Shown: in pieces, positions 1 through 55,085 of the stretch
Layout: every line of letters begins with the position of its first letter
Position numbering within the stretch: the stretch's first letter is position 1
Assembly (NCBI GenBank): GCA_963662175.1
Contig: OY759224.1
Location: 21,151,489 to 21,215,488 of the forward strand
Origin: Aradus depressus
Lineage: Eukaryota > Arthropoda > Insecta > Hemiptera > Aradidae
Reading direction: 5' to 3'
Length of the DNA stretch: 64,000 nucleotides
Notes under the pieces: generated by a model
Databases searched by the model: none
Told to the model about the DNA's origin: nothing
Seen by the model: only the letters and a program-made list of their open reading frames with translations
Made by a program: the position numbers and the translations under genes

Positions 1-548
1 ATTGAATGGCAAGATACCGCATCTAGAAATTTCAGGCGACTCCTACTCCAGCTTGCAGTACCTTTTTAAAACTTAAAACAAGTAATTTCCTCCATCATAC
101 TCGAAGTGTGTCAATCCATCATTAACTGCTTAAAGGGCTATGTGAAGGTAAGACAATAAATAATTAAATTTTTTGTGTCCCAAAGTATGGGTAAACTTTG
201 AAAATTCCCCAACTTCGTCCTGCGACCACTCCATTTTTGAAACTGAGATGGGAGAGAAGGGGGAATAAAAAAAAACCGTGTCCATTCTGAGCACGAACAG
301 AAGGCGTGCTCACTTTGATGTACCGAGATCTCTCGGATCGGGCTCAGCGCATTCGAATTCGAAGGCTTATCCAGTACACAACTGAGCATTTGAGTGGAGA
401 ACGTATGCTCAAGTGAGTACCCACCTTTACATTGGCAGTTATACGGGTTTTTGAGTTTAACACCGTCCATCCCTTCACTGCTCCATCCATTTATTTTGGC
501 CGATTCGGCTGAAACTCAGTAGATGTCATCCTTATTTAGATCAATATA

Positions 549-1354: not shown

Positions 1355-1521
1355 TATAAACATTTTTGTGATGATAAATTCTTTACACCGGCAGTTATCA
1401 GTATTTTTGAGTGAACGGTTTCATACCACTGGCGCATTATTTTAATTGAATCGTTATTTACTGTTTTGTTACAAGAAAATTCTTATTTGCCTAATTAAAA
1501 ACAAAGTTAATTTTGAAGTTT

Positions 1522-1556
1522 GTGCTGACGATGGCATAAAGCGAAACCGGCACACT
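1522..1556 (+). ncRNA. Degenerate hammerhead-like motif
   Basis: The stretch has CTGACGA, then a short G/C stem, GAAA, CCGG and the closing bases GTG/CAC. It is the same layout as the better copy at 44647. The U of the expected cleavage site is C here and stem II is damaged, so activity is unlikely. The downstream sequence (tggaattattcaatat) resembles the tail shared by the other copies (gtggaattagacaatat), which shows common descent. Confidence 0.45.
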
Positions 1557-1752
1557 TTATGTACATATATACTTCTCTGGAATTATTCAATATAAATATT
1601 TGAAGTTCTTTATTTTTTATGTTGTAAGCTTTCCACCGTATCGAAACATATCGCAGAATGTATTCGGACAAGAAAAAAATTGATGAAAGGTGATATTTTG
1701 AAGAAAAAAAAGTCTTATAAACAGATTTTTCATGAAACAAAAGTAAACTTAC

Positions 1753-5194: not shown

Positions 5195-8100
5195 CAAATA
5201 AAAAAAAATTTAGAGAGAGTTACCCCGGGATAATATTCAGATTCAAATTTGCAAAACCAAAGATATCTCGTGATAATACGTCCGGGAGTTAATCACCTCT
5301 CATGGTAGTCTTTTATTACATATGGTTGAAGCCCTTGTACCAATATTACGGTATTGAAATGTTTTTCAGAAAATATGCCGAAATTAGTACCACCAGCTCG
5401 ACTTACATCTTATAATCCTTCCACTATTATTTAGCAGAGAAATATTATAAAATATTTTTCATTCAATACTTCTGGTAAGCAATCAATAAACATGATGGAA
5501 GCAGATATTGCCATATTGAAGTGAATTTTCATATAATATTTGAAAATTCATGCCAAAAAGTAGATCTAGTCCCAACATCCCTTTCCCCATTATTTTAGCA
5601 CGGAATAATAAGAAAATAATTGACACCTATCGATTCAGCCGAATCAGCTAATTGAAACGGGGATACCGGAGAAGAGGAGTTATACAAAAAAATCAAAAAC
5701 ATACGTGTTGTGGTCATAACAGAACTTTCTTATACCAACGAAGCTTCTTACAAAGGCCACTTTCTCTCCCTCCCCCCTCCAAAATTTATTTCATACTGTG
5801 TGTTGTACAGTTTAAATTAGAGTGACTTTCAACATTTTTATCCTTTTTAATAAAAAACTGGTACTAATAAAACTATATATATATATATATAATTCAATTA
5901 CTATTTTGAAATAAAATACTTACTGATATTAATTTTTCATTTTTTGGGGCGCTATTACTTTTATTGTATTGGTCTTATCTCAAATTTTCATGATGGAAAT
6001 AATAAATGTGGTTATTTTGTTTTTCAAAAAAGGGTAATTTTGTAGAGCTGAATCCACAGTTTTTATGTGGAAACACTGGTTCGAAAAGTGTGATTCACAG
6101 AACGTAAGTAATATATACTGGTCGCTTGTGTGTTTCACCATCTTTCGCTCTTTGTTCTTCGAAGTGATAGTACAACTTGAAAAGGTATTCCTTCTTTTCA
6201 ATTATATTTTTACTTGATTTCTTCTTCTTATTATTATTATTATTTTGAGTCATTGAATAATATAATGTTCTATGTTGAATTCTGTAGATACATGCGGTAA
6301 TTTTAAGTTAAAAAAACCTTAAAATAAAATTATAAGAAACGAGGGGTAACCTTTCGTTGTCTGCCATAATAAAAATTATATGTATTTTATTTATAAACGT
6401 TCGTTTGTTTGTATAAAAGAAAAATATTTTTATATTGACAATGTTCGGAGAAATTTCTGGATCAGATATTATTGTTTAATCTAATTTTGTTTTCTTGTTT
6501 AATTAATGGTGCTAAGTGTGTCATTTTTTAACAGTTGGATACAAATTGAAACTCGAATTGAAAAGTTACGATTTTTGAGTTATAATAAATACATTGAACA
6601 AAATTAGCTTTTTGAAATATTGTCTATTCCACATGAAAACATTTCTTGTGGGATATACAATATTTCAAAAAATGAAGTTTTATTTATTTAAAATAGTAAT
6701 TTTTTTCTACATATCGTTACTGATTACATTCTTGTGACAATTTTCTGAATATTTATTCCTTAATTAAAAAGCCCTCTCTTTGCTAATTCCTATTTGTTTA
6801 TCTTTCTAAGAATTGTAAATATTATTTCAAAAATTTGATAAAATTAATATACATTTTATTTATTAATCTTTTGGCCAATATGCACGGAACATCAGGCCAA
6901 GAGGTAAAAAAAAAAAAAAATCTTAGAAATGTTCTATTATTTATTTATCTATTTCATTCTCATAATTATTATCATTCATAACATATGTGTTCTTATATAT
7001 AATATCAGTTGAACTATATAATTAATATACTATTTTCAAGTATAAAACAGTTCGACGTATCGGACGAAATAACAGATGTAAATATTATTTATTTATTTTA
7101 TTTTATTTTATAATTGTTATTATTCCTCACATTTGTGATGGTACTCCAAGATTTTAATATCTTAGAAAAAAAAAAAATGTGTCATCTACACTGCCGTAGG
7201 TATTTTTACTTGACAACATCTATAGGTGGTTCTTGTCGACTAACTCGTAATTTTAAACTATTTTGGCTCATAATCTGCAGAGAAAATAATTATTGGTTAG
7301 AAAGGCATTTATAATAATAAAAATGTCTTGTATTTCTTTTTACAGATGTACAATAATATTAACTAGGTGTGCAATGCGTTCTGCTGTTGGCAAAAACTGA
7401 GCTGAGTCAGTCTAAATTTATTGAATCATACTGTTAATGTGGTCGGTTAACATACAAGTAGTGCATTTGAAATGGGGCATATGAACTGGTTTGTGATCAT
7501 TGGATGGATACGTAGGGTTTTCAAGTTTGCGAATTTTTACGGAACTTTTTCTCGGTGTTTAACGTGAACATCTGTTCGACCAAACTACACAATTTCTAAA
7601 TCACCAATGATAGTTTTCTTAGGTTTGAAGTCAGTTGACATAGGCGTTATGGTGAACGGTTTGAGATGTGGCTGTGGTGCATGATTCCTTTGGATATCTG
7701 GCGAAGGAAGGATACGGCTCAAAAAAAGTGGTGTCCCATGGTAAATCGAAAAGGACTTCGTCCGAATTTTTACATTTGAAATCGGAAAATTCTATTTTGC
7801 GCGAGAATTTTGTCTGTCAATTGATTTCAATGGGGACTTCGTTTTTCGGTGATTATTCCTCCGTGGTATGTTCGATTTCAGATTTTTTTAATAGTAAACC
7901 ATTGTCACCATATCCACTACCATCTTGGCGAATTTCAATGTAATCGGCTATAGATATAGGTATTGATAATATACATGATAAATATTGAACGAAAAATGTC
8001 GAATCAATGTGAACACTTCGACGCATGCGTCAACCTCTGTTCAACAAGGGCATGCAATGTTGAAAGATGAAAACGCAAGTTGAAACGCATGTTGAATTGA

Positions 8101-8667: not shown

Positions 8668-8952
8668 TGGTATGCGTGCTTGCCTTCTGAGCTCAAGGTT
8701 GTGGGTTCGAAACCCGGCCGAGGCACGCCGTCTCTTCGGATGGGAATGTTAAGCGATGGTCCCGAGCCTGTGCGATGTTAGGTACTCGTTAAAAACCCCT
8801 ACCCCAGATGAATAAAAATTAAGGGTAGGCTAAATGTAGGACTCCCATTGTAGAGTTGGGCTCATGTCCACCACAGAGTGACGAAAGAGCACTTTGGTAG
8901 TAGGCGATATGACCTCGTAGTTGAAGCCCGGGCATGAGTCATAATAACTAAC
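8668..8952 (+). mobile_element. tRNA-derived SINE copy, tail AATAACTAACTA
   Basis: The B box ggttcgaaacccggccgagg is present, followed by the SINE body (ccttcggatggga, cccgagcctgtgcgatg, aggcgatatgacctcgtag, cccgggcatgagtcat). The A-box half is weakened and the usual internal hairpin before the acgccgtc segment is deleted. The tail is aataactaacta rather than aacctaacct. Confidence 0.85.
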
Positions 8953-10225: not shown

Positions 10226-10242
10226 AAAAAATTCGGTCTTGT

Positions 10243-11905
10243 CTATCATAAACTGTTCATTGACATTTTATATATCAATTTTAAGTAATGTGGTTTACTG
10301 TTTTCGCATTTATTAAACATTTAAAATCAATTATATAACTTCATCATTCAATATATTTCTTTTGTAAAACTTTTTTTGTGGTACTTATATATTTGATTTC
10401 TATCATAAACTGTTCAATGACATTTAATATATCAATTTTAAGTAATGTGGTTTACTGTTTTCGCATTTATTAAACATTTAAAATCAATTATATTACTTCA
10501 TCATTAAATATATTTCTTTTGTAAACGTTTTTGATACTTATATATATTTGATTTCTATAATAAACTGTTCATTGACATTTTATATATCAATTTTAAGTAA
10601 TGTGTTTTACTGTTTTGGGCATTTAATAAACATTTAAAATCAATTATATAACTTCATCATTCTATATATTTGTTATGTAAAACTTTTTTGGTACTTATAT
10701 ATTTGATTTCTATCATAAACTGTCCAATGACATATTATATATCAATTTTAAGTAATGTGTTTTACTGTTTTGGGCATTTAATAAACATTTAAAATCAATT
10801 ATATAACTTCATCATTCTATATATTTGTTATGTAAAACTTTTTTGGTACTTATATATTTGATTTCTATCATAAACTGTTCAATGACATATTATATATTAA
10901 TTTTAAGTAATGTGTTTTACTGTTTTGGGCATTTAATAAACATTTAAAATCAATTATATAACTTCATCATTCAATATATTTCTTTTGTAAAACTTTTTTG
11001 GTACTTATATATTTGATTTCTATCATAAACTGTTCATTGACATTTTATATATCAATTTTAAGTAATGTGTTAAATGCCTGTTTTGGGCATTTAATAAACA
11101 TTTAAAATCAATTATATAACTTCATCATTCAATATATTTCTTTTGTAAAACTTTTTTGGTACTTATATATTTGATTTCTATCATAAACTGTTCAATGACA
11201 TATTATATATCAATTTTAAGTAATGTGTTTTACTGTTTTGGGCATTTAATAAACATTTAAAATCAATTATATAACTTCATCATTCTATATATTTGTTATG
11301 TAAAACTTTTTTGGTACTTATATATTTGATTTCTATCATAAACTGTTCAATGACATATTATATATCAATTTTAAGTAATGTGTTTTACTGTTTTGGGCAT
11401 TTAATAAACATTTAAAATCAATTATATAACTTCATCATTCAATATATTTCTTTTGTAAAACTTTTTTGGTACTTATATATTTGATTTCTATCATAAACTG
11501 TTCATTGACATTTTATATATCAATTTTAAGTAATGTGTTTTACTGTTTTGGGCATTTAATAAACATTTAAAATCAATTATATAACTTCATCATTCAATAT
11601 ATTTCTTTTGTAAAAGTTTTTTGGTACTTATATATTTGATTTCTATCATAAACTGTTCATTGACATTTTATATATCAATTTTAAGTAATGTGTTCTACTG
11701 TTTTGGCATTTAATAAACATTTAAAATCAATTATATAACTTCATCATTCAATATATTTCTTTTGTAAAACTTTTTTGGTACTTATATATTTAATTTCTAT
11801 CATAAACTGTTCATTGACATTTTATATATCAATTTTAAGTAATGTGTTCTACTGTTTTGGCATTTAATAAACATTTACAATAAATTTTATACTTTATCAT
11901 TCAAT
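10243..11905. repeat. ~155-bp tandem array, eleven copies, in the 3' UTR of the IFI27-like gene
   Basis: Units begin ctatcataaactgttca at about 10243, 10400, 10555, 10710, 10865, 11020, 11178, 11333, 11488, 11643 and 11797. Spacing is 154-158 bp and identity between units is very high. Two diagnostic differences (cattgacatttta versus caatgacatatta; caatatatttcttttg versus tctatatatttgttatg) mark subtypes that are mixed along the array. Most units contain aataaacattt, so each carries an AATAAA polyadenylation-like hexamer; the first two have attaaa. The last unit decays near 11880. Confidence 0.95.
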
Positions 11906-12254
11906 ACATTTCTTCTGTTACAAACCTTATGAACCCTTCAGTACAGTAGGGTTAGAAAGTGAAGATTTGTTTCACCGCACGTCCTTTGAAGGTAGCTAGT
12001 TAATAACTAGTGAATAAATACTGATAGTGCCATGAAGTGGTGACGTAGTTCTACGTTGTAAAAATGGGTACTGACAAGTTTTCAACGGAATTTCAAGGTC
12101 CCTTGAATATGTTTTGAATATTTTCGTGTGTATTTAACTGAAACTTTGTAGTAATGAACATGGAATTTGATATGAAGATGGTCACATGTGCTAAATAGAG
12201 ACACCTAGGGACCTAAGCATTCAATAATTTTATCTCTTCCCTGTTAGCTCAAGT

Positions 12255-13060: not shown

Positions 13061-13104
13061 TAACTAGACCTGACGATGGTGTAAGGCCGAAACCGCTAGT
13101 TATA
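13061..13104 (+). ncRNA. Hammerhead-like motif (degenerate stem III)
   Basis: CTGACGA at 13070-13076 is followed by a short stem with loop guaa, GAAA at 13089-13092, CCGC, the UA site at 13097-13098, and then GTT, which can pair with GAC before the core. The expected palindrome CCGG has one change. Downstream tagtggaatagacaatattt is the tail common to the family. Confidence 0.5.
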
Positions 13105-13312
13105 TATATTTATATCTTTAGTGGAATAGACAATATTTCAAAAATAAGTTTGTTTTATTTATTTAATAAATATATCGTCAGAAAATTTAGTAAGAGAATT
13201 TAAGAGCCCCAAATGTAAGTCAACTATTGAATCATAGCGCAAAAATTCGCAATCCTTTGTTTATAGAACTTCTAATATTCAGGTGTAAAATGGATGTTAC
13301 TATATATATCTG

Positions 13313-18224: not shown

Positions 18225-18308
18225 TCGCAGAGATATTGTGAAACACTTAATAACATTTTTTTTTTTTTTTTTTTTTTAATATTGTCTATTTCACAAAGTA
18301 CATATAAT

Positions 18309-18346
18309 ATAGGAGTACTTTCGGTATTGCTACCATCTTCAGCCAC
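18309..18346 (-). ncRNA. Hammerhead-ribozyme-like motif, best-formed stem II
   Basis: Read on the minus strand: GTGG, CTGAAGA, an extra U, GGTA-GCAA-TACC (a perfect 4-bp stem II with a GNRA tetraloop), GAAA, the palindrome GTAC, the cleavage pair UC, then CTAT, which pairs with GTGG (with G-U) as stem I. All conserved core bases are present. The single U between the core and stem II is also present in the copies at 44657 and 13077, so it belongs to the family. The 4-base stem III could only form by pairing between two molecules, as described for Penelope-like retroelement hammerheads. Confidence 0.6.
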
Positions 18347-18356
18347 GATTTAACAA

Positions 18357-18394
18357 ATACTGAAGGTTGTAGCAATACCGAAAGTACTCCCCTA
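18357..18394 (+). ncRNA. Hammerhead-like motif, mutated core
   Basis: This is the mirror of the unit at 18309-18346. CTGAAGG replaces CTGAAGA (the core A is lost) and one stem II base has changed, while GCAA, GAAA, GTAC and UC are retained. The core change should abolish cleavage. Confidence 0.5.
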
Positions 18395-18746
18395 TCATAT
18401 ATATTTTGTGAAATAGACAATTAAAAAAAAAAAAAAAACATTAGTTTTTCTTCATTTTTCATACTTATATTTCTATCAGCGTTAGTTAAGAGATGAAAAG
18501 GCACATCTAGATAAGTAAATAGTTTTGAATTTTCGCAAATTTCTCAGAAAAAAAGAGAACAGAAAAACATGGAAGCACATCCGAATACTATTTTGAAAGG
18601 AAAATGCAAAACCAAAACCAGAATTTTTGCAGTATTACTTCAGAATAAGAGGGACATGTATTTTGGGAAATCTTCAAAGTAAGATCAACTTTCATGGGGT
18701 AGTTTCAAGTCTATTCACTCTATGCTTACCTACTGAATTCAATATG

Positions 18747-20595: not shown

Positions 20596-21200
20596 GCCCA
20601 ACTAAATCTCCTGTTAGTCCGTTTGTGAACACGATAACTACCGATATAATGAAATCTACATAAAGTTTTATGTGTGTATGCCCCCTAAGGACGACACCTA
20701 ATGAATTTCACCGACTTAACTCAAAAACCCTAACAACTGTCGATGTAATGATTGTACTTACATGAGATTTTATGTGTGTATCCCCCTATGGACGACACCT
20801 AATGAATTTCACAGACTTAATCCTAAAACCCTAACAACTATCGATGTAATGAATGTACTAACATGAAATTTTATGTGTGTAGCCCCCTAAGGACGACACC
20901 TAATGAATTTCACCGACTTAACTCCAAAACCCTAACAACTGCCGATGTAATGAATGTACTAACATGAGATTTTATGTGTGTATCCCCCTATGGACGACAC
21001 CTAATGAATTTCACCGACTTAATCCTAAAACCCTAACAACTGCCGATGTAATGAATGTACTAACATGAAATTTTATGTGTGTATCCCCCTAAGGACGATA
21101 CCTAATGAATTTCACCGACTAACTCCAAAACCCTAACAACTGCCGATGTAATGAATGTAATAACATTAAATTTTATATTTAAATTCAGGAGGAAACAGTG
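20596..21200. repeat. 101-bp tandem array of the dispersed module, five copies
   Basis: The block ggacgacacctaatgaattt recurs at 20689, 20790, 20891, 20992 and 21093, exactly 101 bp apart. Copies 1, 3 and 5 have ctaagg before it and cttaact(c/caa) or ctaactcc after it; copies 2 and 4 have ctatgg and cttaatccta. The array therefore alternates as a 202-bp dimer. Sequence to 21310 is a single diverged unit of the same family (cgacacaaaatttaatatgagg). Confidence 0.93.
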
Positions 21201-40310: not shown

Positions 40311-40829
40311 ATATTTACAGTTACTAAAACGTAATTACTAACTTATTACCAATTTACTTTATACTCATTGCAAATTTTGCCATTGTGTTTTGGTTTTCTA
40401 GATAGGGTGAAGACCTAGTCGAAAGACCAACCCCTTCCTTACCTATATGAATGATTCGCACCCAGCAAACCTTTTTGTATACATTTTTTCGTAGGATAGA
40501 TATTAAAAAAAAAAAAAAATTGTTTTATTTAATCTAAAATTAATATTTTTTAAATTCCTCTAATATTTTTCTAGCGTCTTCAAGTGCGAACGAGCTCTCT
40601 ACACGTTGCTGTTCTTTTCTAGCATTCAAATAGATTCTGTTTCTCCGGCAGTTTTTCTAAAATGTATTCAAATAATTTTCAATTGAACAAATTCTAGAAA
40701 AAAAATAAATAACTGGCATTCCGGGAAACAATCTGGGAGAGGAACCTTCACTTTAAATTCCTTAAATTGTAGTTGTTCTGATCGGGTAAGCACAACAGAT
40801 CGGGAGCTGAGGCCGAAATGATCGTCGAA

Positions 40830-43859: not shown

Positions 43860-45275
43860 GGAATTAACTTTCTAATGCCTTGAAGAAATTATAAACAATT
43901 TAAAAAATACAAACTTCAACTGAAAATCTTTATTTTAGAGAAAACGCTCTATTCGGAAGCGGATGATTTTTTACTCATTGATATAATTTATTTTATATAC
44001 ATATATTTATTATTAATAACCATGATTTTGTTTCATATTCAACAACATTATTTTAATGTCCGAATACATTTTTTGCGTTCTGCGTTGATATAGTGGAAAT
44101 ACTAATAAATAAAATAAAATGATAGATAAAACTTATAGTAAGGAAAGGGGAAAAAATCTACATTTGCGAAACATATAAATGATATGGGTCACTCATTCAA
44201 TGAAACAACCGGCATAAAATACCTCCACTTATGTGAAAAAGGTAGACCATTAGATTCTCTGGAACAGCTAGAAATTAATAGGACTCGAAAAAAAATGGGA
44301 ATTGTTTAAACGACCTGACACACTTAAAATTTTCTCCTTTGTTAATCCCTTTCAGCTAACAAATATCCATGGCAATATTAACCTAGGTTAAATAATTTCC
44401 TACTTAGACATATAGTATCTATATATTGTACATTTGTTATATTGTTTTCTTGGAATGTTAGTTTTTGGTTTTATTTTAATTTAATTTAATTGTTTTTCAA
44501 ATAAGTGCACAGTTAGCTATTACAGTTAGAATAGGGACTTCCACCCCCCTGGTTTTACGAGAGGAAGGGGACCATTTCACCTCAGGTACTCTTAGGTTAA
44601 TATAAATATGTATGCCTGGCAAATATCTGAATTATTGTTGAACATTGTGCTGACGATGGCGTAAGCCGAAACCGGTACACATTCAAGTATATGTTTGTGG
44701 AATTAGACAATATAAGTGTTAAAAAAAAAAGTGTTTTATCTATCATTTTATTTTATTAACATTATTTCATATTTACCCTTCATTTTTATTTTCTTCTCCA
44801 AGTTCCTCCACACCTCCTTCCTATAAGATCTGTCAAATCTACTTTTTGTTTATTTTCATTACTAATATATTTATTTTGTATTAGTTATTTACTAATTTAT
44901 ATTGTTTTTGTTTTCACTTTCTTTTCTATATTTTGCACGTTGTTACCTGAGGAAGGGTCAAAAGAACGTCCCGAAATATCGTCATGAAAAAGACACTTCT
45001 GGAAGAATTATAATAAAAATATTTATCATAATTTTAATTATAATTGAATACTGTATTTATTAATATTATTATTTATTGTATAAATTATTTTCTAGTATTT
45101 ATTTAGTCATTTTTTCATTTATTTTACTTTATTGTTATTAGTAATATGACAAGGTTATAACTGTTTATGTACATATCTAATTTATAAGCTATTTTGATTT
45201 ACCTATACATTATTGTGACATATCCTATTACCATATTATGTTTTAATGTAAATAAATATTATTATCATCATAATT
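43860..45275 (+). mobile_element. LINE-like 3' end with hammerhead-like motifs
   Basis: Near 43900-43960 the frame resembles the (F)KxxLxxxL end seen at the C-terminus of many LINE ORF2 proteins, and the same block is at 59270-59310. A UTR follows with ccaagttcctccacacct (44800), gaacgtcccgaaatatcgt (44964) and a T-rich body ending aaataaatattattatcatc. The hammerhead-like unit 44647-44681 and its shared flank lie inside. The assembly may be two elements side by side rather than one. Confidence 0.45.
44647..44681 (+). ncRNA. Hammerhead-ribozyme-like motif, all core bases kept
   Basis: Order: GTG (44647-44649), CTGACGA (44650-44656), an extra U, GGC-GUAA-GCC (stem II with a GNRA tetraloop), GAAA (44668-44671), CCGG palindrome (44672-44675), UA (cleavage after 44677), then CACA pairing back to the U-GTG for stem I. 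Flanking ACCGGU makes a 6-base palindrome that could pair two molecules. Downstream, ttgtggaattagacaatat is shared with other copies. The extra U after the core is unusual relative to the textbook hammerhead but is constant in this family. Confidence 0.6.
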
Positions 45276-53670: not shown

Positions 53671-53945
53671 TATTTCGTATAGCTGGGAATAGAAACCAAT
53701 AGAAAAATATTTTTCCTCCAGTTTTTTTTATCTACATTTTTAATTTTGCCCCCTTAACGAGATATTTTTAATTGAAATATTTCAAGATGGACATCCTGTG
53801 TATTTATTCCACCCAAAAAATAACAGAGATTCATCTTTCCATTAATATATAAGAAATTTACATAAAAACTGGTGACAGGCCAGCCTCAGGGCTTTTGTCG
53901 GTAAATGTTTTGTAATAATTTAATATTTTTTTAATTCCACAATAG

Positions 53946-54530
53946 TTGGCGAAATAATATAAAGAACCAGGTGGATATTGAGTAAGGAGCAGGAACGCCC
54001 AAGGAAATGGTTATATTTAGATAAAATAGAAGATGCGATACATAAATAAATAATATAAAGAACCAGGTGGATATTGAGTAAGGAGCAGGAACGCCCAAGG
54101 AAATGGTTATATTTAGATAAAATAGAAGATGCGATACATAAATAAATAATATAAAGAACCAGGTGGATATTGAGTAAGGAGCAGGAACGCCCAAGGAAAT
54201 GGTTATATTTAGATAAAATAGAAGATGCGATACATAAATAAATAATATAAAGAACCAGGTGGATATTGAGTAAGGAGCAGGAACGCCCAAGGAAATGGTT
54301 ATATTTAGATAAAATAGAAGATGCGATACATAAATAAATAATATAAAGAACCAGGTGGATTTGAGTAAGGAGCAGGAACGCCCAAGGAAATGGTTATATT
54401 TAGATAAAATAGAAGATGCGATACATAAATAAATAATATAAAGAACCAGGTGGATATTGAGTAAGGAGCAGGAACGCCCAAGGAAATGGTTATATTTAGA
54501 TAAAATAGAAGATGCGATACATAAAATGTA
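53946..54530. repeat. 96-bp minisatellite, six copies
   Basis: gaaccaggtgg recurs at 53964, 54060, 54156, 54252, 54348 and 54443. Units are almost identical; one has a single-base deletion. Since 96 is divisible by three, an open frame runs through the whole array on the minus strand, changing frame at the deletion. Confidence 0.95.
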
Positions 54531-55004
54531 TTCGGTTGTAATGTCTGGTTTCATTATTGAAAAACAAAGAAAGAAAAATAATTTAGTCATCAAAATATCA
54601 GTCATTACATTCTGTACAGTTCGGTCATAAATGTTTGAAACACTTTAAGTTTTTAGTGTCAATTCAACGAGGTTCCGGTTTAGAAGTGTCTTTAGAAAGT
54701 CAGACAGAACTCTGGACATTGGTTGTCCATCCGGGGGGAGGTCTGAAGAGTAGGACGGATGAGGAAGAACTTTCCGTTTTAACAATTTCATTTTTTATTC
54801 TGCGATAAAGATTTTTGGCCTACTGTTCGTTAGCGTTGATAGACAGCCATTCAAGCTGTGACCCACTTTTCCATCTTCCCTACTTCAATCGCCTCCAAGC
54901 AGAGTATAATAAATTAAAAAATACGATTAACAAAAAATTAATTGCGGATAAAATAATTGACAATTAATTTCATAAATAAAAACCTAGAACTTGTTCAATT
55001 TTTA

Positions 55005-55085
55005 TATTGTCTAATTCCACAAAACTATGTACAAGTGTACCAGTTGCCACTTACGCCATCGTCAGCACCAAGTTCACAAGTGAAT
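55005..55085 (-). ncRNA. Degenerate hammerhead-like motif
   Basis: Minus strand: GGTG, CTGACGA, UGGCGUAA, then GUGGCAAC where GCCGAAAC is expected, and TGGTACAC. GAAA has become CAAC. The conserved flank tgtggaattagacaatata follows. It is a dead copy of the family at 44647. Confidence 0.45.

Follow-up and report, generated by a model that had tools for sequence, protein, structure and literature searches.

The locus raises the question of whether a short hammerhead-like motif inside a repeat of Aradus depressus is a ribozyme, what kind of element carries it, and whether its cleavage has a part in the spread of that element. Hammerhead families are characterised by the core stretches CUGANGA and GAAA, and by a UH cleavage site. 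In the 64,000-nt stretch of DNA that was analysed (the window), the plus strand at 44647-44681 reads CUGACGA-U-GGC-GUAA-GCC-GAAACCGGU-A^CAC, with CUGANGA, GAAA and UH in type-I order together with stems I and II, and with cleavage predicted after A44677 (Table 1). The order of the core, the closing of stem II by GUAA and the pairing of the flanks are as the earlier note had described them. The inner part of stem I is UGUG/CACA and can be extended by UUGAA/UUCAA; in counting covariation, the four core-adjacent pairs were included and the outer five excluded. Stem III is a palindrome without a loop (ACCGGU or AGUACU), which, judging from the sequence, could form only between two copies; since it cannot close in one molecule, two units would be needed. 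The extra U at 44657 also creates an AUG (44656-44658), followed by GCG UAA.

The motif shares CUGANGA, GAAA and UH with the hammerhead families of Rfam, but differs from them by the extra U after the core and by the lack of a closed stem III. The Rfam covariance-model search that the earlier note had proposed returned no hammerhead match in the window, either at gathering thresholds or at relaxed ones (E up to 10). Matches to Rfam microRNA families at 18295-18407 and 6609-6671 are below the family cut-offs and were rejected; they correspond to head-to-head arms of the element.

Table 1. Features of the hammerhead-bearing repeat, with positions in the 64,000-nt window.
Feature	Position	Strand	Basis or remark
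Decayed group B copy	1518..1597	+	covariance model
Head-to-head pair of tail-only copies without ribozyme	6609..6671	both	
Group C copy, stem III mutated (CCGC)	13063..13140	+	covariance model
Group D head-to-head pair	18275..18427	both	minus strand CTGAAGAUGGUA-GCAA-UACC-GAAAGUACU; decayed plus-strand partner
Inverted 3' tail copy (longer, site-2 form), left arm of head-to-head insertion	44058..44132	-	
Frameshifted remnant of ORF 3' end (KSTFAKHINDMGHSFNE...SPLLIPFS-stop)	44154..44359	+	translation
Non-coding pseudo-LTR region, ORF stop to predicted RNA start	44360..44629	+	homologous in many fetched copies
TATA-box-like TATAAATATG	44601..44610	+	putative promoter (inferred function)
Stem I, 5' strand (UUGAA-cau-UGUG)	44638..44649	+	pairs with 44678-44686
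Core CUGACGA and extra U (44657)	44650..44657	+	U in 22/22 aligned rows
Stem II GGC, GUAA tetraloop, GCC	44658..44667	+	sequence; covariation
GAA of core, palindromic stem III ACCGGU, H17 = A	44668..44677	+	sequence; ACCGGU vs AGUACU across copies
Stem I, 3' strand (CACA-UUCAA)	44678..44686	+	sequence; covariation
Conserved tail ATGTTTGTGGAATTAGACAATAT...	44691..44753	+	up to first 3' end cluster (~+102 to +104)
Decayed group B copy, core GAAA changed to GCAA	55000..55072	-	covariance model

The pattern CTGANGA(3-25)GAAACNGGT has a single match in the window against 0.00 expected from 100 shuffles, and the looser CTGANGA(5-30)CGAAA has seven against 0.71 expected, some of them from sequence other than the hammerhead repeat. 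For the GTGGAATTAGACAATAT flank, the window has two exact matches. Genome-wide (698 Mb, 74 contigs), the exact 31-mer with any base at N7 is found in 844 copies (429 + 415), and a reversed-control pattern of the 31-mer in none. A unit of ~75-80 nt recurs in five window copies; besides stem I and the core, it contains a variable stretch and either GTGGAATTAGACAATAT or a variant form. When these five (44643+, 55072-, 13063+, 1518+ and 18349-) are used to build a covariance model, the model recovers six window units at E below 0.001, namely its own sources and 18353+, the inverted partner at 18353-18427 (E 0.00024). Several window copies are partly decayed, with GCAA replacing GAAA at 55065, CCGC in stem III at 13070, and C in place of the U preceding the cut at 1525. 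A loss of CTGANGA/GAAA from most copies, which the earlier note had named as evidence against a ribozyme, is not what the sampled copies show: among 97 copies selected by their tail, regardless of the ribozyme, the motif is present in 77 (with at most eight errors), and 62 of these 77 keep the core intact.

Compensatory changes were evaluated in an alignment of 22 hand-picked rows (A3) that belong to four sequence groups (3 A, 8 B, 4 C and 7 D). It contains the six window units and 16 rows chosen from 28 viewed among 139 matches in 94 loci. L038 1494-1569, L041, L058 420-500, L071 463-538, L082 and L095 were left out, as were L096, L112, L118, L126, L147 and L152 264-333, being half copies, decayed copies or extra copies of a group; L037 overlaps L036 and was excluded from copy comparisons. 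The five window copies have 86.3% of the cells of the three stems paired, compared with 26.3-44.2% when the partners are slid, and in the 22 rows the corresponding values are 85.4% and 29.9-48.3%. The covariation score of the 22 rows is 0.460 against a shuffled mean of 0.198, and none of 500 shuffles is as high. Changes on both sides are seen in 39 cells and in eight pairs, the latter count being matched by 31 of the 500 shuffles and by the +3 slide. Because the rows are related, the shuffle counts are not probabilities, and the slides provide the better control.

Stem II compensation is exemplified by GGUA-GCAA-UACC versus GAUA-GAAA-UAUC in one group D row. In stem III, 86.4% of the cells hold standard pairs, and two of its three pairs carry both-side changes; ACCGGU is found in most rows of groups A-C, and AGUACU in only three of the seven group D rows. 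CUGANGA and GAAA remain nearly invariant across the 22 rows while the stems vary, and the extra U is present in all 22, which agrees with the constancy that had been claimed for it. Within these hand-picked copies all three stems covary, so that the compensatory changes sought by the earlier note are found, and the palindromic stem III that it proposed is borne out both by the presence of ACCGGU and by the covariation of its pairs.

The description of the surrounding sequence as an uncharacterised repeat does not hold, as the repeat consists of a pseudo-LTR and the remnant of an ORF and resembles a Penelope-like element (PLE). With its pseudo-LTR, inverted arms and ORF end, the repeat looks like a PLE at the sequence level; the long copies examined stop short of the reverse transcriptase (RT) region, and no RT domain was seen in them. 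The motif is located at the pseudo-LTR/ORF junction, which is a Penelope-like trait. Going 5' from the ribozyme, the TATAAATATG box is followed by non-coding sequence and the ORF end, and transcription is predicted to start near 44630, 29 nt past TATAAATATG. The distance from the ORF stop to the downstream CTGA is 239-354 nt in the longer copies and 291 nt in the window copy; the ORF end is retained in L064, L163, L164 and L065. In four compared copies, the ORF end has 84-93% identity to the first, with the motif GVYQLKCETC..VYTGQ..R..F..RIKEH visible, and three of the four match the Pfam GIY-YIG family (PF01541) at E up to 0.1. The best match, at E 0.0014, falls short of the Pfam cut-off, a Pfam search with the L064 copy alone gave no GIY-YIG match, a search for homologous proteins with the endonuclease piece retained none of 210 candidates at E 0.001, and searches of PDB and NCBIfam gave no meaningful match. 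The ORF end may resemble a GIY-YIG endonuclease, by a weak match. On the other side of the motif, a downstream frame reads MFVELDNISVQKSV in group A (MFVELDNI...); its form in the window copy is MFVELDNISVKKKSV. This frame runs open across the ribozyme in L067, L164, L168 and the window copy.

Copies picked by the ribozyme or by the tail have the 3' end region in common, whereas their 5' ends vary. The 3' ends were analysed in 83 tail-selected loci with 137 arms, of which 17 loci were fetched as pairs, with L164 as reference copy; three of the 100 listed tail places are absent from the 97-copy sets and were included here. Counted from the C of CTGA, the ends cluster at +102..104 (27/137 arms) and +154..159 (28/137), ~52 nt apart, and the remaining ends are mainly scattered just downstream of each cluster. 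By analogy with a described Penelope-like element (PMC11167929), we infer that the two sites are RT starts. Both orientations are present in 52 of the 83 loci, 48 of these 52 being head-to-head, and in 42 of them one arm ends by +122 and the other at or beyond +150. Among the first 100 of 678 tail places, all 17 pairs of neighbouring tails with a spacing below 1500 bases are head-to-head, and none is tandem. The inverted stretch at 44058..44132 is the left arm of a head-to-head insertion; by eye, it matches the tail of other copies in reverse complement, and L036, L053 and L060 contain it too, at different offsets. Head-to-head copies of many sizes may arise by template switching or twin priming. 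The L064 copy (upstream of 5584) is preceded, by eye, by a ~65-nt inverted piece of its own ORF, in the form that this ORF has in L112, and the L163 copy by an inverted pseudo-LTR arm.

Taken together, the best explanation is a dimer-type minimal hammerhead of a Penelope-like element, situated at the junction between the pseudo-LTR and the next unit, for which the sequence predicts cleavage; we assign this reading a probability of about 0.85. Two units, in the same tandem transcript or in two transcripts, would form a double hammerhead through pairing of the ACCGGU palindromes, and this would cut after A44677, separating the side that carries the ~20-nt leader, the AUG and the pseudo-LTR from that of the tail and ORF. 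The element protein would start reverse transcription within the tail, independently of the cut, and the window copy would be a dead, 5'-truncated insertion.

If cut RNAs were frequently copied, insertions would be expected to begin at CAC. A peak of 5' ends at this position was considered as a sign of in vivo cleavage and rejected, since none is seen among the 97 copies: three begin at +26..+30 (four at +27..+31) against 2.4 expected, where the expectation is an even spread over -60..+52 and the bins were chosen after seeing the data. A post hoc bin at -22..-16 contains 10 of the 97 ends against 3.4 expected, five of them exactly at -20, an excess that coincides with the RNA start predicted from the TATA box, and the bin -50..-44 contains six against 3.4. 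In the Poseidon element PAc of Anolis carolinensis, the published account likewise has no read ends at the cut, and ribozyme activity only with added protein (PMC11167929). We therefore consider the cut unlikely to be the source of the insertions seen here, and the ribozyme is predicted from its sequence to be able to cut as a dimer, perhaps helped by the element protein.

The same missing pile-up would also be expected of a former ribozyme that has lost cleavage in vivo, and whose sequence is kept only for its overlap with the promoter, the leader and the RT recognition region. However, the compensatory changes between groups, with stem III included, suggest that pairing itself is under selection, and we regard this alternative as possible but rather unlikely.

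A more specific role for a cutting ribozyme, in which it would sense concentration from the 5' end of the element mRNA, is conceivable from the sequence, and we hold it to be improbable. The RNA would then start ~20 nt before CUGACGA, so that stem I and the core, together with the first AUG, make up the whole leader. Lone transcripts would adopt an inactive hairpin, and their accumulation would let the ACCGGU palindromes pair. Leaders, caps and upstream AUGs would thereby be removed, converting a translated mRNA into an uncapped template RNA, and the MFVELDNI frame would lie just downstream of the removed leader.

The conserved unit could in principle be a mere extended hairpin (UGUGCUG/CGGUACA plus UGGC/GCCG) that serves, for instance, as a protein-binding or RT-start signal, with an incidental likeness to hammerheads. 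For the single strand, the structure of lowest predicted energy is this hairpin, in which core bases are paired (z-score -1.39 against shuffles); the hairpin is paired in 83.4% of cells in the 22 rows, and its covariation score of 0.358 exceeds all 500 shuffles. However, it covaries less than the hammerhead (0.358 versus 0.460), with both-side changes in four pairs rather than eight and in 24 cells rather than 39, and part of its support comes from stem II, which is common to both folds. Two of its outer pairs are disrupted, one in 11 and the other in 8 of the 22 rows, and it leaves unexplained the near-constant CUGANGA and GAAA, as well as the AGUACU palindrome of three of the seven group D rows. 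A hairpin alone is therefore a poor candidate. The double hammerhead, at a predicted -22.3 kcal/mol, is not the most stable dimer, which has -32.8; the most stable monomer has -13.5. These energies omit tertiary contacts. A non-autonomous metazoan retrozyme, i.e., a tandem repeat of 150-450 nt with a canonical type-I hammerhead, would agree with the short non-coding copies and their type-I-like hammerhead, but is very improbable because longer copies extend upstream into the ORF, the listed neighbouring copies are inverted with none in tandem within 1500 bases, and stem III is minimal.

For the dimer-type hammerhead, the constancy of the extra U calls for an explanation. As judged by eye, a stop comes one codon after the AUG that it completes in 10 of the 11 rows belonging to groups A and B, and in three of the four group C rows, the commonest short frame being AUG GCG UAA. 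Retention of the U as part of an ORF start codon is not supported, as this AUG is soon stopped and MFVELDNI is in another frame. Since a coding use of the AUG fails to explain the constant U, it is more likely that the U is kept for a structural role.

Other repeats in the window were noted in passing. A second hammerhead-like motif, CUGAGGA-A-GGG..CCC-GAAAUAUC, is found on the plus strand at 44947-44990, ~300 nt downstream, and comes from another repeat; partial relatives of it (CGTCCCGAAACATCGT) at 40827 and 59560 are without CTGANGA at the right place. Tandem arrays occupy 10242-11933 (~155-nt units, roughly 11 copies), 53856-54622 (~96-nt units) and 20680-21184 (~101-nt units). A dispersed repeat around CCGTCCTTCGGATGGGACGTTAAGCGATGGTCCCGAGCCTG occurs at 8708, 14449, 18772, 30796, 48487, 48891, 49916 and 61484; these eight direct copies have 64-100% identity, inverted copies are also present, and the repeat has a SINE-like look.

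Searches were also extended beyond the host genome. The pattern CTGANGATGGN{3,16}CCGAAACCGGT has 14 matches in prokaryote contigs, by eye unrelated and taken as chance, and one in viral contigs, on the phage-like contig IMGVR_UViG_3300030329_001222. This contig carries an entire hammerhead-like motif that shares the extra U (L001 9862-9916, plus strand). It reads GUUAUU-CUGAUGA-U-GGAC UAAAU GUCC-GAAA-CCGGU..ACCGGU-C^AAUAAC, and its predicted minimum-energy fold is a three-stem hammerhead; an Rfam scan of it at E up to 1 gave no hammerhead. No other contig came out of two more viral scans with narrow patterns, a looser scan gave 15 loci that include it, the other 14 being unconvincing by eye, and the exact GTGGAATTAGACAATAT flank has five viral loci, by eye unrelated. 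Among the literature matches listed for sequence pieces, 13 of 15 concern papillomavirus; they were rejected and taken as an unrelated site.

With respect to known systems, a 2017 publication by Lunse, Weinberg and Breaker reportedly deals with the dimer action of PLE hammerheads. Minimal hammerheads in PLEs are established (PMC6155905, PMC7229834). The dimer dependence that the earlier note ascribed to them is in print as a possibility, one source stating that they may cut as dimers (PMC7761336). The window motif resembles these minimal hammerheads in its type-I order, minimal stem III, pseudo-LTR position, high copy number and proposed dimer action.

A second comparison is provided by PAc. 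Its RNA is reverse-transcribed from within, starting 111-118 nt into the ORF, the two RT start sites bound a "tail", and both DNA strands are cut and extended (PMC11167929). As in PAc, the hammerhead is at the pseudo-LTR/ORF junction and has an AUG where stem II begins. The 111-118 nt of PAc compare, by arithmetic, with 3' ends at 97-99 and 149-154 nt past the AUG here, and the predicted cut is ~22 nt from the A of the AUG, compared with 26 in PAc. Unlike PAc, the AUG inside the hammerhead here mostly meets one codon and a stop, and MFVELDNI... starts elsewhere. That 3' ends fall at two sites, usually a different one on each inverted arm, fits the internal RT starts at two sites seen in vitro for the anole element.

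The Penelope families of Adineta vaga have head-to-head inverted pseudo-LTRs, an optional tail on one of them and a TATA box (PMC3846280). The present element appears similar in its TATA box in the pseudo-LTR, its inverted pseudo-LTRs and the tail on one arm; the tail is 31 bp in Adineta vaga, compared with ~52 nt between the two 3' ends here. The word hammerhead is absent from the main text on these families (PMC3846280).

Overall, the anatomical match to described Penelope-like elements appears close, and minimal PLE hammerheads with possible dimer action are already known, so that the window element is, as a well-supported conclusion, a further member of this class; the weak endonuclease match and the RT that did not appear in the copies examined are two reservations on its assignment to the PLEs. 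Its new interest would be in the covariation within one genome, and in how the start site, the short upstream frame and the ribozyme are arranged. Hundreds of similar copies in at least four groups in a single genome form a covariation test set for a presumed dimer-dependent ribozyme of the kind described in other Penelope-like elements.
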